From an uncultured Cryomorphaceae bacterium (lineage in GTDB: Bacteria; Bacteroidota; Bacteroidia; Flavobacteriales; Schleiferiaceae), in assembly GCA_913060465.1 (NCBI GenBank), contig CAJXTR010000006.1, positions 1-37,014 of the forward strand: a stretch of 37,014 nt of DNA, given 5' to 3'. A program made the position numbers and the translations under genes. The notes beneath the pieces were generated by a model that worked only from the letters and a program-made list of their open reading frames with translations, did no database searches and was not told the origin of the DNA. Shown one piece after another: positions 5,715 through 32,253 of the stretch; position 1 is the stretch's first letter, and each line of letters begins with the position of its first letter.

Positions 5715-7340
5715 TTAAGTCTGAATTACTCCAGGATTATATTTTGCAATATCAGGGTTATGGTTGGCCATCGCAATACCATAACTCAACCATTGTCTAG
5801 TGGCAGCAGGATCGATGATTGCATCAACCCACAAACGAGCAGCTGCATAATAGGGACTCATTTGTTCCTCGTAACGCTTCTCAATCTTTTCTTTGAGTGC
5901 TTTAAGGTCTTTTTCGCTAAGTTCTTCTCCGCTTGCCTTCAGACGAGATTTTTCAATCTGCAGAAGGACCTTAGCCGCTTGAGCACCACCCATAACAGCA
6001 AGTTTTGCGTTAGGCCAGGCTAGAATAAGTCGGGGATCATAGGCTGTTCCGTTCATAGCGTAATTACCTGCACCGAAGCTATTCCCTGTGATAACGGTGA
6101 ATTTAGGTACGGTCGAGTTCGCTACCGCATTAACCATTTTAGCCCCATCCTTGATGATACCTCCATGTTCACTTTTTGAGCCTACCATAAAACCGGTAAC
6201 ATCTTGCAGAAAGATAAGCGGGATGCGTTTTTGATTACAGTTAGCAACGAATCTAGCAGCCTTATCAGCACTGTCGCTATAAATCACACCGCCAATCTGC
6301 ATTTCGCCTTTAGCGTTTTTAATAATGGATCTGTTGTTCGCTACGATACCTACTGCCCATCCATCTAGTCGAGCATAGCCGCAATGTATGGTTTGTCCGT
6401 AGGATTCTTTATAGGGCTCCCAACTACCGCTATCTACGATACATTTAATAATCGGTAGGTTATCGAACGGCTTTCCATCATGTGGAATGTATCCATAGAT
6501 TCGCTTGGCATCTTCTTCCGGAGCTACAGCTTCGATTCTATTGAAGCCAGCCTCAGGGAAGGCGCCCATCTTATCGAAAATATTTTTGATGGTATCGAGC
6601 GCTTCTGAATCGTTTTCACACTTGTAATCTGTCACGCCGGAGATATCACAATGTGTATCTGCTCCTCCCAGGGTTTCATTATCCACATCTTCACCTATGG
6701 CTGCCTTAACTAGGTACGAACCGGCCAAAAAAATGCTGCCAGAGCCTTTAACGATAAGACTCTCATCGCTCATGATGGGTAAATAGGCACCACCAGCTAC
6801 ACAGCTGCCCATGATGGCTGAAATTTGGGGAATACCCATTCCCGACATGATCGCATTGTTTCTGAAAATGCGTCCAAAGTGCTCGCGATCCGGGAATATT
6901 TCATCCTGAAGGGGTAGAAAAACACCGGCGCTATCTACGAGATAAATGATAGGAATGCGATTCTCCATGGCAATCTGCTGGGCTCTTAGGTTCTTCTTAC
7001 CCGTAATAGGGAACCAAGCGCCCGCTTTCACCGTGGCATCATTAGCAACCACGATGCATTGACGACCCTTTACTTCAGTGAGCACAACGACTACGCCGCC
7101 CGCAGGACAACCGCCGTATTCTTTATACATGCCATCACCGGCAAAAGATGCAACTTCAAGGCAAGGAGCATCTTTATCGATAAGGTATGATATGCGCTCT
7201 CTGGCGGTTAGTTTTCCTTGATCGCGCTGTTTTTGAAGCTTAGCGCTACCGCCTCCGAGCTCAACTTTAGCTTGACGCTGCTTGAGTTCACTGAGGAGTA
7301 GTTTGAGTTCGTCTTCGTTTTTATTGAAGGATAGGTCCAT
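5715..7340 (-). CDS. Acyl-CoA carboxylase beta (carboxyltransferase) subunit, methylcrotonyl-CoA carboxylase-like
   Basis: 541 aa; IFPDREHFGRIFRNNAIMSGMGIPQISAIMGSCVAGGAYLPIMSDES and LGGADTHCDISGVTDY are MCC-beta-like motifs. Confidence 0.88.
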   Translation of the reverse strand: MDLSFNKNEDELKLLLSELKQRQAKVELGGGSAKLQKQRDQGKLTARERISYLIDKDAPCLEVASFAGDGMYKEYGGCPAGGVVVVLTEVKGRQCIVVANDATVKAGAWFPITGKKNLRAQQIAMENRIPIIYLVDSAGVFLPLQDEIFPDREHFGRIFRNNAIMSGMGIPQISAIMGSCVAGGAYLPIMSDESLIVKGSGSIFLAGSYLVKAAIGEDVDNETLGGADTHCDISGVTDYKCENDSEALDTIKNIFDKMGAFPEAGFNRIEAVAPEEDAKRIYGYIPHDGKPFDNLPIIKCIVDSGSWEPYKESYGQTIHCGYARLDGWAVGIVANNRSIIKNAKGEMQIGGVIYSDSADKAARFVANCNQKRIPLIFLQDVTGFMVGSKSEHGGIIKDGAKMVNAVANSTVPKFTVITGNSFGAGNYAMNGTAYDPRLILAWPNAKLAVMGGAQAAKVLLQIEKSRLKASGEELSEKDLKALKEKIEKRYEEQMSPYYAAARLWVDAIIDPAATRQWLSYGIAMANHNPDIAKYNPGVIQT

Positions 7341-26650: not shown

Positions 26651-26753
26651 GCGCCTAAAATAGGCTATTGTGTGGATAACCTAAAGTTTTCAAATCCCAC
26701 AATTTTATTGAAATGACCTCGTAGTTTTAGAATGAACATTAAATAACCATGTC

Positions 26754-26879
26754 ATGTACAAAATCAGAAAAACAATCATGAGATGGGTAGAAGCCTATTT
26801 TTTTCGAAGGCGTAACCTATCTATCGTAGCCCTAACTGCCATTAATACAAAATCTTATAACATGATCTACTATGTATAA
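26754..26879 (+). CDS. Putative 41-aa basic microprotein MYKIRKTIMRWVEAYFFRRRNLSIVALTAINTKSYNMIYYV
   Basis: Read by eye: ATG 26754, TAA 26877-26879; overlaps the next ORF start (26872) by 8 nt. Below the track cut-off. Confidence 0.4.
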   Translation: MYKIRKTIMRWVEAYFFRRRNLSIVALTAINTKSYNMIYYV

Positions 26880-27258
26880 TAGTTCCAACTTAATCCAGAG
26901 CAAGAGCTCTTTTTACTTGCAACAAACCGCACATAATATTTTATCTTATTTCCATTATTTGAAGGGGCAGCCTATATATGATAACATGCTGAGTTGCCAT
27001 ACTCGTATGACCGATGTAATCTGCAACTACCATTCTATTGGAGGTATTGAGCGTCAGATTTCTCACTATGGCGTTTTTATCCAATTAGTTATAGAATTCA
27101 AAACCATGATCGATCTCATGCTCAAGCGTGGCTTGGAATTTCCTGGTTTGGCATATACTATAATGGAGGTAGAAAATTTATATAAACTGTTGCAGGAGGA
27201 ACTGTTAAAGATGCGGGTATACCAGCTTCAGATTCAACTAATCCTGAAATCTAAATAG
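26872..27258 (+). CDS. Hypothetical helical protein (orphan A)
   Basis: 128-aa ORF; helix-rich composition; 2 nt before the next co-directional ORF. Confidence 0.6.
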   Translation: MYNSSNLIQSKSSFYLQQTAHNILSYFHYLKGQPIYDNMLSCHTRMTDVICNYHSIGGIERQISHYGVFIQLVIEFKTMIDLMLKRGLEFPGLAYTIMEVENLYKLLQEELLKMRVYQLQIQLILKSK

Positions 27259-27260
27259 CC

Positions 27261-27677
27261 ATGAATACAGCACTTTCGCAGCCTATTTATCAAGAGTCGT
27301 TGTCCATCAATAGGACCATACAACAATTGACTAGAGGCTATCATAGTAATGGTACATTTAATCTTGCCTTTAAAATAAAGGATGATATCATCGCTATTTG
27401 CAATGACCTAGATCAAGGTGTGAGCGCTCGCTTTGAGCATACCTTCCTATCGTACTATAAGAATGCGCTCAATAGAACAGCGTTGCTGATAGAGCACATG
27501 GAGATCGCTAATAAGGCACACATGTTGAAAGGTGAAGGTTTTCCAGATAGCTTGTTCATTCGAGTGAGATTACTTCATAAGAAAATGGAACTCATGCTTG
27601 AGATGATTCAATCTGAAGTACCAGTTGATTTTCTGACTCTTTCGGCTTGGGCACGGCAAAAACTAGCGTTAAGTTAG
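27261..27677 (+). CDS. Hypothetical helical protein (orphan B), probably distantly related to orphan A
   Basis: 138-aa ORF; C-terminal MLKGEGFPDSLFIRVRLLHKKMELMLEMIQSEV resembles MLKRGLEFPGLAYTIMEVENLYKLLQEELLKM of A. Confidence 0.6.
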   Translation: MNTALSQPIYQESLSINRTIQQLTRGYHSNGTFNLAFKIKDDIIAICNDLDQGVSARFEHTFLSYYKNALNRTALLIEHMEIANKAHMLKGEGFPDSLFIRVRLLHKKMELMLEMIQSEVPVDFLTLSAWARQKLALS

Positions 27678-27681
27678 CAGT

Positions 27682-28536
27682 GTGAATACGGAAGAAATCA
27701 ATGATTTATACTGGTGGGCTCAAGAGCGAGTTCGCGGATTCATGTCAGGGCTGCATCGCAGCCCTGATTTTGGCTATAGCGTAGAATTTGCGCAGCATCG
27801 TCAGTATGTTCCTGGGGATTCTCCGAAACACATTGATTGGTCTGTATTAGCGAAGACGGATCGGTATTTAACAAAGCAATACGAGGCAGAATCGAACATG
27901 CGTTCGTATTTCGTTCTGGATTCCAGTTCCAGTATGCAGGCTCCAGCCGGTCCGGAAGGGAAGTGGAACACTACCTTAAAATTATTAGTGCTCATAGCAG
28001 CCCTTGTACAAAAGCAAAGGGATGCGCTTGGCTTATTAGAAGTGCATGGAGAAACCCTGAACTTTTTTGAAAGCTCAAATAAGTCGGAGAATATACAGCA
28101 GATCTTAAACCACATTCAAGGCATTGGAACAACGCCGAAGGCAAACACGGTATTTTCTGCAGCTATTCAACAATTGTTAGTTCGAATACCAAAACGTTCT
28201 CAAGTTTTGATTTTCACCGACTTCTACCATGAAGATGATGAGGGTTTTGTTCAGGAGGTAAACAAGCTAAGACACGCTGGCCATCATGTACGAGTTTTTA
28301 TGATGTACAGCGGGGCATTGGAAGTTGAAGGGAAGACGTTAAGTGGTTCCTTAGTCGAAGATGTTGAGTTTGGAACGCGCACGATGCTTTCCTCATCTGA
28401 TGTTAAGCGTTACACGGCTTTCTGCTCAGAGAAGCTTCGATTCTTTGAATCGGCTTTCAGGACAGCTAATCTGCAGTTCGACACCGTTGATATCGATCAT
28501 GGTGCTTTGATCGGTCTTCGGAAAATTATTGCATAA
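27682..28536 (+). CDS. DUF58 domain-containing protein (GTG start)
   Basis: 284 aa; FMSGLHRSPDFGYSVEFAQHRQYVPGDSPKHIDWSVLAKTDRYLTKQYEAESNMRSYFVLDSSSSM. Confidence 0.88.
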   Translation: MNTEEINDLYWWAQERVRGFMSGLHRSPDFGYSVEFAQHRQYVPGDSPKHIDWSVLAKTDRYLTKQYEAESNMRSYFVLDSSSSMQAPAGPEGKWNTTLKLLVLIAALVQKQRDALGLLEVHGETLNFFESSNKSENIQQILNHIQGIGTTPKANTVFSAAIQQLLVRIPKRSQVLIFTDFYHEDDEGFVQEVNKLRHAGHHVRVFMMYSGALEVEGKTLSGSLVEDVEFGTRTMLSSSDVKRYTAFCSEKLRFFESAFRTANLQFDTVDIDHGALIGLRKIIA

Positions 28537-28563
28537 AAAAGCCCGGCTCCGCCGGGCTTTTTA
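28535..28563. terminator. Bidirectional intrinsic terminator between convergent genes
   Basis: AAAAAGCCCGGC-TCC-GCCGGGCTTTTT, with A-run and T-run flanks on both sides. Confidence 0.85.
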
Positions 28564-30132
28564 TTATTTATTGTCCTTTACGGTTTCGCTTTTCTTGTAA
28601 GCATCATCGACCTTTTTTTGATCGGCCGGAGAAAGTGACTTAGCATCAGATGCTTTCTTTTTGGAATCTTTATCCTTTTTGAATCGGCTATCAAAGAATA
28701 CCATACTTACCCCTGCTGTAAAGTTGATTCTCGAAGTAGCAGCACCAACCATGACTGCGCCATTACCCGAATTAGCCGCAATAGTGGCAACATCACCAAC
28801 AGTCGAAGAGCCCATATATACTTGCATTAACGGGGTGATTCTGAATTGAACAACAGCATTAATAAGATCTGAATTGTACTCGTCCATGGACATGTAATAT
28901 CCTCCTTTGAGTTGGAAGTTCTTATGTAACCATAACAACGAAGTGAAGCCTAGGTAGTTGTAATCCATATTTGATTTAGAACGAGCAGCATAATGTATAC
29001 CTACGTAAGAGTTCTTATTCAAATTATAGTTCATTGCAGCATTCATTACCTGTGGCACATCGTATGTGTAGGTATGAGTTGTTGTATTTAATGAAGTAGA
29101 GAGTCCATTTTGAATATCTGAAGTGAAAGCGTTCACCTCTTGTTTTACTGCACTGGCTAATGTATCGCCTGCTTGACTTACATATTCAAAACCTGTGATA
29201 GCAACACCACCTTCGATAGATTTAGCGTAATCAGAAGAAAGGGTTAAGGTTTCAGCGCCCAAGCCACTCATGCTAAACTGAAGGGTGAGTTGCTTAATAG
29301 GTTCAAACGTAGTTCCAAAAGCGAATGAATTCGTGCTTTGTGAGCTACCTGATAAGTAATTCACTAAGCCGCCAATATCTCCGCCGCTGAGCATATTCAA
29401 AGGCAAGACAGCATCTTGATTTAGTTCAGATAGTTCAGTGGCTGTAGATGCGGGATCAAGCAAATTCGAACCGGCGAGTGTAAAGTCGTAGTTCACGTTC
29501 AATTCATTGCGACCTGCAATGGCTGTCGGAGTACTTGTAATACTAAATGAATTGGCATCGAAACGCATTCCGGCTACATAGCCCACCTGACTTGCTGAAA
29601 GACCAATGCGAAGTTTCTCTTCCATGAACGTTCGTTGTAATCCAACGGTCTTGTGATTCGTGATATCAAGTGCAATCCCGAGGTCACTGAAATCACCAAC
29701 ATAGGAGAGATTTAGATTACCATTTGCATCTCCCATTCCGTATTTAGCAAATTTTGCCAAATCATTGTCGAATGTGAATCCTAGATCAATATTCTGACCA
29801 TAACCTGCAAATACGAAATTCTTTCCAAGCTTAAATCCCAAGTTCAACGCGCTGATACTGGTTGAATTATTAATGCTTGTGTTTGAGGAATTTAAATCTG
29901 AGATATTCTTGAGTAGATCCGAGGTCGCAAAGAGACTTCCGGCAGTTTCACTTAAGAATACGTCATTTTGAATTCCGAAATAGTTCAAGTGGAACTTCGT
30001 CTTAGCATCTGCGCCAGGATTTTGAACGAGGTTATCTGGATTGCCTGATAATCCAAAGGTGCTAAAGTTTTGTGCGTTTGCTAGAACAGTGACGCTTACG
30101 GCTAATAGTGTGATAAACTTTTTCATCGTCAT
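28564..30132 (-). CDS. DUF5723-like outer-membrane/secreted protein
   Basis: 522 aa; signal peptide FITLLAVSVTVLANAQ; beta-rich sequence resembling the DUF5723 family; charged Lys/Asp C-terminal tail. Confidence 0.65.
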   Translation of the reverse strand: MTMKKFITLLAVSVTVLANAQNFSTFGLSGNPDNLVQNPGADAKTKFHLNYFGIQNDVFLSETAGSLFATSDLLKNISDLNSSNTSINNSTSISALNLGFKLGKNFVFAGYGQNIDLGFTFDNDLAKFAKYGMGDANGNLNLSYVGDFSDLGIALDITNHKTVGLQRTFMEEKLRIGLSASQVGYVAGMRFDANSFSITSTPTAIAGRNELNVNYDFTLAGSNLLDPASTATELSELNQDAVLPLNMLSGGDIGGLVNYLSGSSQSTNSFAFGTTFEPIKQLTLQFSMSGLGAETLTLSSDYAKSIEGGVAITGFEYVSQAGDTLASAVKQEVNAFTSDIQNGLSTSLNTTTHTYTYDVPQVMNAAMNYNLNKNSYVGIHYAARSKSNMDYNYLGFTSLLWLHKNFQLKGGYYMSMDEYNSDLINAVVQFRITPLMQVYMGSSTVGDVATIAANSGNGAVMVGAATSRINFTAGVSMVFFDSRFKKDKDSKKKASDAKSLSPADQKKVDDAYKKSETVKDNK

Positions 30133-30139
30133 CTGTTAT

Positions 30140-32194
30140 TTAAAGTTGGTAATTAACCTCTAATTCAACGCCAAGATCGAGATCAATGAAAGCATCTGTT
30201 CGAAGTTTGACAGGGTCATTGCCAGCGTTGTAGGTTTCCATACTTGCTTCAGCGATAATGTGAATCGCATCGAGCACGGATTTAGCATCTGCTGCATTAA
30301 GCGCTATTTCTGTACTTAGCACATTCGGTGAGTTAATAACACCAGATGCATCAGGTGTTCCACTTTCCATTAATCCCATGTTGATACTGTGGATCTCATT
30401 CCAGCCCGCGTCATAGAATCTCAGTGTGACAGAAGCGTCTAGAGGCAGGGTAGTAGTGGTTTGAAGTAAGAGTTTTGCACTCTCGAGTGTTGCTCCTTCA
30501 GGCAATGCGTTCGCGTTGCTTTGATTTGTTGCCAATGTATCTGAAAAACCAAGTCCAGCCGCGGTGAAATAGAATGGCATTTCCATTAACAAGTTTCCGG
30601 AGATAGAGGAACTGTTGGTTACGAAATTATCAGTACCGAAGGTTAATGTATCATGATTAACATTTACCTCACCACCATAGACAATACTGTCTTTTGGTAG
30701 GGTAAATACATCAACAATCGAAGAGTTAGTATTGTCGAAGGTCAATGTCCCCGTCGCTGTATTGCCTAGCGTGGTTGGGTAAGGCAATACATAATCAGGT
30801 CCATTTAAGGCATAACCTGTACCGTCTTTGTATGACGCAAAATCTAGAACCAGTTCAATTGGAAGACCAATTGAATTCGTTACGTCCATAGAAATACTTG
30901 GTTCAGCAAAACTTATTGAACCATCGAAGTTCTCTAGGAAATCAATGGCGAGATCTACACTTCCTGGGTCGATCGTGATTTGTTGTGTCCCGAAGAAACC
31001 TTTGATATGTCCGAATTGAAGGTTTGCCATCTCGAAGGTCATATTGAGGGCATCAGAGCTATCTACAGTTACCATATTTCCAGAACCAATCAACGTTGCA
31101 CTCACAGCTATTGGTAACCTGCTGTGGTTTTGTGAAGGATCTTGAGTTAAGTCAAGAATAGTATTATTCATATTGATAGACCCTGAAGTAGTTGCGCCTG
31201 AGGTAATGGTGATGGTCGTATCAATCTCAACGCCATTTTGATCAGAACCAGGGAAGTTCAAGGTGAGTTCTAAGTCTTCAGCTAATGACGAGGTAAATTC
31301 ATAATCAAAGCTTGCCGTAGCTAGCATTAATTCGCGCAGTTCCTCGCTACCACCAGTGCTTAGATCGACATATTGCGTATCTGAAGAAATATCTTGTGTG
31401 GTAATCTCAGTAACTGCATTATAAACCTCTAGGCCTGCTGAAGAGATATCTAGTACAAGGTTGTCCGTAGTGTCAATTCCAACTAGCGTTGTACCTGATC
31501 CTGGGGAGGTAATCGATGTGATTTTAAAACCAACGCTATTAGGTAGTGTCTTATTAACCAATGATTGCGCATTTGAAGCGGTACCGCCATTGGCACTAAC
31601 ATTATTCAAAGCATAGGAAACAATGGTGCTCCCAGTTGATGTATTAACAAGGTCAATTCCCATTGAAACAACTACAGGCCAGTTATTAGTTAACTCTAAG
31701 GTCAAGGTACCATTGGAAAAAGATGCGCTTGTAAATGAACCAAAACCACTACCTCCATAGGTACCAACATTAGTCTCATTCATTGGCGGGAAAATGGAGT
31801 TGCTGCCGTGCGCAGATGAAATTAAGGTCAATCCGGCGTCACTGGCTACAGTTCCAAGGGGAATGCTCTGACTCAAAGTAACATTATCAACGGCAATAGT
31901 TCCCATAGAAATGCTACTACTGGATGGGCTTTGTGCCGGGATTTCAATCAAATCATTCACGTTAATCCCAAAAACACTGTCTTCAGCAACCACCACCTTG
32001 TACGTGGCATTATCGTTGTAAATGAGGCTATCATCTGGGGCTAGAAGGTGCTCCATTGTTAGGTTTACACTACCCAAGGGTAGGGCGATGGCGGGTTCGG
32101 CTATGATATCAACATTAGTCGGATCTACTAAATCTGACTGACAGCTGAATAAGCCTAGTGCAGCAAAAGTTATTGCGCTTAGGTACTTTTTCAT
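30140..32194 (-). CDS. Hypothetical secreted lipoprotein, beta-rich
   Basis: Start MKKYLSAITFAALGLFSCQSD at 32194 preferred over the track start at 32233, giving a lipobox; a -7 box lies at 32223-32230, downstream of the track start. Confidence 0.7.
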   Translation of the reverse strand: MKKYLSAITFAALGLFSCQSDLVDPTNVDIIAEPAIALPLGSVNLTMEHLLAPDDSLIYNDNATYKVVVAEDSVFGINVNDLIEIPAQSPSSSSISMGTIAVDNVTLSQSIPLGTVASDAGLTLISSAHGSNSIFPPMNETNVGTYGGSGFGSFTSASFSNGTLTLELTNNWPVVVSMGIDLVNTSTGSTIVSYALNNVSANGGTASNAQSLVNKTLPNSVGFKITSITSPGSGTTLVGIDTTDNLVLDISSAGLEVYNAVTEITTQDISSDTQYVDLSTGGSEELRELMLATASFDYEFTSSLAEDLELTLNFPGSDQNGVEIDTTITITSGATTSGSINMNNTILDLTQDPSQNHSRLPIAVSATLIGSGNMVTVDSSDALNMTFEMANLQFGHIKGFFGTQQITIDPGSVDLAIDFLENFDGSISFAEPSISMDVTNSIGLPIELVLDFASYKDGTGYALNGPDYVLPYPTTLGNTATGTLTFDNTNSSIVDVFTLPKDSIVYGGEVNVNHDTLTFGTDNFVTNSSSISGNLLMEMPFYFTAAGLGFSDTLATNQSNANALPEGATLESAKLLLQTTTTLPLDASVTLRFYDAGWNEIHSINMGLMESGTPDASGVINSPNVLSTEIALNAADAKSVLDAIHIIAEASMETYNAGNDPVKLRTDAFIDLDLGVELEVNYQL

Positions 32195-32222
32195 CAGAGA
32201 AAGGAATTGAAATATTTCCTGA

Positions 32223-32230
32223 CAAAGGTA
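32223..32230 (-). promoter_or_regulatory. Bacteroidota -7 box (TACCTTTG)
   Basis: Exact TAnnTTTG match on the minus strand, 28 nt upstream of the lipoprotein ATG at 32194. Confidence 0.4.
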
Positions 32231-32253
32231 CAATTTCCTTTTCTACCCGTGGA

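Follow-up and report, generated by a model that had tools for sequence, protein, structure and literature searches.

The locus described here touches on two groups of known systems. The first is the S23 or 23S-rRNA-intervening-sequence protein family (IVP; PF05635, TIGR02436), which includes Xcc0516 (PDB 2gsc) and BT_0352 (2rld). The title of the Xcc0516 paper, as cited in PMC10053308, describes an assembly of five four-helix bundles, and Avd, an accessory protein of diversity-generating retroelements, is homologous to PF05635/2GSC (PMC10053308). The second group consists of the DUF58 proteins, which have a vWA-like domain with a DxSxS motif and are found in MoxR-DUF58-BatA/BatB clusters or as stand-alone genes, the latter in other genera of Flavobacteriales mostly after trxA and often with dnaE before that.

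Here, we analysed a DUF58 locus in a stretch of 37,014 nucleotides from an uncultured Cryomorphaceae bacterium (the window), which corresponds to contig C6 of a genome of 1.74 Mb and 84% completeness. The initial annotation proposed an operon composed of a 41-aa microprotein, two short helical orphans, which we call A and B, and a stand-alone DUF58 gene, with A and B acting as alternative partners of DUF58. The features of the locus are the following.

26720..26732, + strand: conserved promoter-like element CGTAGTTTTAGAA upstream of A (positional conservation across the genus)
26754..26879, + strand: 41-aa ORF, probably not a gene, or a leader ORF under weak constraint at best
26872..27258, + strand: gene A, 128 aa, predicted four-helix bundle (genus homologues, AlphaFold, dN/dS)
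27261..27677, + strand: gene B, 138 aa, putative divergent four-helix bundle of the S23/IVP/Avd superfamily (PF05635, Foldseek, hhalign)
27682..28536, + strand: stand-alone DUF58 (vWA-like), 284 aa, GTG start (PF01882, alignment, tree)
28536..28562, + strand: strong intrinsic terminator separating DUF58 from the convergent DUF5723 gene (fold energy against shuffles)

Layout and conservation of the locus

A-B-DUF58 is a real operon-like unit, restricted to one genus. All ORFs are co-directional and tightly packed, with exactly the spacing first annotated: the 41-aa ORF overlaps A by 8 nt, and the gaps are 2 nt between A and B and 4 nt between B and DUF58. The strong terminator that was proposed to close the unit is borne out: it has a 12-bp stem, a 3-nt loop and a T tail, and its stability of -19.9 kcal/mol (z = -4.1) was equalled by none of 200 shuffles. 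At the other end, CGTAGTTTTAGAA may correspond to a Bacteroidota -7 box, which its letters resemble. It has one exact match in the window, and about 0.8 matches with at most one mismatch are expected by chance. Hence, its support comes from positional conservation and not from rarity. Beyond the terminator, the DUF5723 protein (28564-30132) adjoins a 697-aa lipoprotein-like protein (30140-32233, - strand) with no Pfam or NCBIfam match.

The available genomes of the genus are incomplete MAGs of uncultured Flavobacteriales. Twenty of 25 contain B, including all 11 of good quality, although among these the copy of G010 is broken and that of G014 is only a remnant. A is present in 17 genomes of the genus, counting that of the window and leaving out a match in G001 that covers a short stretch with an internal stop. 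All 17 loci that are complete over the stretch and have an intact B also carry A. The order A-B-DUF58 is intact in 17 genomes, again including that of the window, with A and B separated by -4 to +34 nt. In close pairs of genomes, A has dN/dS values of 0.04-0.08 and B of 0.004-0.06, one pair having identical B proteins, and purifying selection is strong on A, B and DUF58. Since they are conserved across the genus and have low dN/dS values, A and B are real genes and not chance ORFs. B is the best conserved, with 17 full-length homologues at 63-69% identity and 60 invariant columns out of 138. A evolves faster than B: its 16 homologues in the genus are 23-48% identical and share 10 invariant columns, with a conserved N-terminus (MYxSxxLIxSKxxFxxQ). 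The profiles of A and B had no match beyond the genus in 398 Flavobacteriales genomes (1 of 109 genera positive), nor did that of B in a phylum-wide sample of 396 genomes. The conservation of gene order in relatives is thus constant within the genus but limited to it. A limited search found no published description of the operon.

The microprotein proposed as first member of the operon did not withstand this comparison. The 41-aa ORF has no family match in the family-model searches, and an ORF in the same position, sharing a W-x-E-x-[YH]-[FY]-F-R-like stretch, is present in the three closest species only. Its similarity in frame 0 peaks among the four closest species, a modest signal, and its dN/dS in one pair of genomes is about 0.46, compared with values of about 0.04 there for A and for B. 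Most of the genus lacks it and has in its place unrelated ORFs, four-codon ORFs or a small PID-CTERM protein, and we reject it as a microprotein gene. Two of these upstream ORFs deserve mention in their own right. In one subclade (G007, G008, G011 and G012), a conserved ORF of 60-63 aa directly upstream of A begins like a signal peptide and carries a PID-CTERM sorting domain (NF046080), which scores above the cut-off in G008 (E = 7e-8) and just below it in G011 (E = 1e-5; loci L077 and L116, just upstream of A at L116 9399). A four-codon ORF, M-[TI]-[YF]-[HYF]-stop, lies upstream of A in five of the six genomes G002, G009, G013, G016, G023 and G024 (loci L057-L061 and L056), about 30 nt past a conserved CGTAG-TTTA element; that of G024 is slightly different. 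It is possibly a minimal leader ORF, or a product of chance among close species.

Nature of the A and B proteins

Several lines of evidence indicate that B is not an orphan. PF05635 (23S_rRNA_IVP) matches 17 of 18 B sequences, with a best E-value of 5.5e-9, and two members exceed its gathering score (36.4 and 35.9 versus 33.8 bits). The window's own B is a weak match (E = 0.0022) and falls under both curated cut-offs (18.6-18.8 of 33.8 bits and 14.1 of 24). Its AlphaFold model (mean pLDDT 85.9) is an up-down bundle of four helices (3-23, 35-54, 59-85 and 96-116), and its nine best PDB matches in Foldseek are all 2gsc or 2rld, with probability 1.00, E-values of only 0.004-0.02 and TM-scores of up to 0.70 (query) and 0.82 (target). 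Sequence searches of B against the PDB gave nothing meaningful. A profile comparison with hhalign aligned B over 99 columns, with a probability of 92%, to a set of typical IVP proteins, almost all of them taken from other genera within this bacterial family. Judging from these sequence and model comparisons, B is a divergent member of the S23/IVP/Avd superfamily of four-helix bundles. It shares with the S23/IVP family the fold and the order of helices, over about 99 aligned residues, and has retained the G and R residues of its "NIAEG..R" region. It differs in lacking the W-Q-K-A and S-I-x-x-N-I-A-E-G signatures, in having a nearly invariant loop of its own, GYHSNGTFNLAFK, and an additional C-terminal helix, and in having its gene in the same operon as A and DUF58. 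Matches of B to PHROGs were weak (E of 0.01 or worse), and a phage origin was not retained.

Membership of this superfamily raises the question of whether B could serve a diversity-generating retroelement as an accessory protein of the Avd type. The fold is common to both, and Avd is itself homologous to the family of B. However, there is no reverse-transcriptase (PF00078) match in the genome, at 84% completeness, nor among the ORFs of the window, which largely refutes this identity and makes it extremely improbable.

The case of A is different. Its AlphaFold model is a confident four-helix bundle (mean pLDDT 93.4; helices 11-26, 34-52, 59-85 and 93-127) with helix boundaries nearly equal to those of B. 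The structures 2gsc and 2rld are among its best natural matches, without significance, and an "Avd-like protein" is among the weak ones. The family-model searches gave no match for A, none of its 17 members matched PF05635, and hhalign gave a probability of 0.3% to IVP and of 0.3-1.3% to B. A paralogy of A and B was not retained, as the profile comparison was negative and the structures are suggestive at best; a shared ancestry is possible in the light of the models. Of the initial description as two helical orphans, the predicted helical nature of both proteins is supported, but the orphan status of B is not.

The stand-alone DUF58 and its relatives

The DUF58 assignment is clear (PF01882, E = 1.2e-25, 90.4 bits versus a cut-off of 23.4). 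The DxSxS motif starts at residue 80. Of the vWA metal site, this motif and the later Asp are mostly preserved, while the Thr position is not. A tree of DUF58 splits MoxR-linked and stand-alone proteins with 100/100 support and places the genus on the stand-alone side. The window's protein shares with those of MoxR-DUF58-BatA/BatB clusters the vWA-like domain with DxSxS, but lies on a separate branch and lacks MoxR or Bat neighbours: no MoxR or BatA/B-type gene was found in the window's ORF list, as annotated, and no relative examined, close ones included, has MoxR beside the stand-alone DUF58. On the same side of the tree are the stand-alone genes after dnaE-trxA of other Flavobacteriales, at about 30-40% identity. 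These have neither A-B nor MoxR next to them, occupy a different neighbourhood and encode proteins 25-30 residues longer (309-315 aa versus 284 aa in the window). The stem of the genus is very long, at 2.87 changes per column, which makes its precise placement relative to the dnaE-trxA-linked genes uncertain. In another genus of the same bacterial family (g27, e.g., G145, G154 and G159; 96-98% complete), we found no DUF58 match at E <= 0.001, either stand-alone or MoxR-linked.

These observations bear on the proposal that A and B are true alternative partners of DUF58, scaffolding or regulating its vWA-like domain in place of MoxR/Bat. In its favour, A-B constantly adjoin DUF58 in the genus, MoxR never does, and the long stem and the shortening of DUF58 coincide with its relocation and the arrival of A-B. 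However, the same genome encodes, on contig C15, a canonical cluster of MoxR, DUF58, a 292-aa ORF, vWA and vWA/TPR genes, and this MoxR could serve in trans. A bolder version, in which a heteromeric ring of A and B replaced MoxR as partner of the rapidly diverged stand-alone DUF58, in a reversible swap of AAA+ partner, seems to us quite improbable.

Joint loss of A and B

The history of the locus provides further evidence on these partnerships. Five genomes keep DUF58 without A-B. G014 and G015 (L002 and L004) share a common deletion that left a short 3' piece of B, and also retain CGTAGTTTTAGAA in an altered form. G004 (L019) has a degenerate tail of B, and G003 (L017 and L117) a mere trace of it (LLQMKLILEL). 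In G010 (L088, around 6001-6420), A is gone and B has a frameshift and a nonsense codon. The supported branches of the DUF58 tree require at least four independent losses of A-B. After these losses, DUF58 is intact and constrained, with pairwise dN/dS of 0.03-0.15. Its branches are longer, which could have suggested relaxed selection, but when the neighbouring GHMP kinase gene served as reference in a relative-rate test, whole lineages proved to be faster, and no change in rate was particular to DUF58.

Because A and B were lost together while DUF58 remained constrained, the two seem mutually dependent, whereas DUF58 seems to need neither of them. Their adjacency may account for part of the joint loss, since a single deletion removes both genes. 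The best evidence against adjacency as the sole cause is G010, the only genome that shows a deletion of A followed by the decay of B through separate lesions. The relics retain chiefly the 3' end of B, which adjoins the start of DUF58, and those of G014 and G015 also CGTAGTTTTAGAA, a pattern consistent with the tail of B holding the translation start region of DUF58 and with a single promoter for the unit.

Since four lineages lost A-B while DUF58 stayed intact and constrained, without a DUF58-specific shift in rate, the idea that A and B are its alternative partners is weakened and we consider it unlikely, even if its premise of a stand-alone DUF58 without a MoxR neighbour stands. The same losses could be explained if A-B were an independent module, conditionally useful, e.g., in defence or stress, that landed upstream of DUF58 and borrows its promoter. 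Its single apparent gain in one genus, the repeated joint loss, the strong constraint while present and the faster evolution of A would all fit. On the other hand, A-B were found away from DUF58 in no locus examined, and matches to defence families (PADLOC) are weak and partial at most, such that a defence role was not retained. This explanation appears rather unlikely to us, if a little less so than the alternative-partner one.

We lean, with moderate confidence, towards A-B being a co-dependent pair of helical bundles, a lineage-specific accessory module placed in the transcription unit of a DUF58 that is independent of it. A, B and DUF58 would be transcribed as a single unit, confined to one uncultured Flavobacteriales genus, and A-B would use the promoter of DUF58 without DUF58 depending on them. 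The two proteins would most likely form a hetero-oligomer, acting as an accessory scaffold or adaptor. This assembly may be ring-like: a solved member of the superfamily assembles as a ring of five, the title of its paper naming five four-helix bundles. The biochemical role of A-B-DUF58 is one that we infer; a tuning by the A-B module of DUF58's own vWA/MoxR-type activity is a tentative guess, to which we give limited credence.

These results link the S23/IVP/Avd bundles, a very common yet functionally obscure family, to a stable genomic neighbour. They illustrate how repeated joint loss reveals which genes of a unit appear mutually dependent. Finally, they tell apart the stand-alone and the MoxR-linked branches of DUF58, which are conflated when genes are annotated by domain name.
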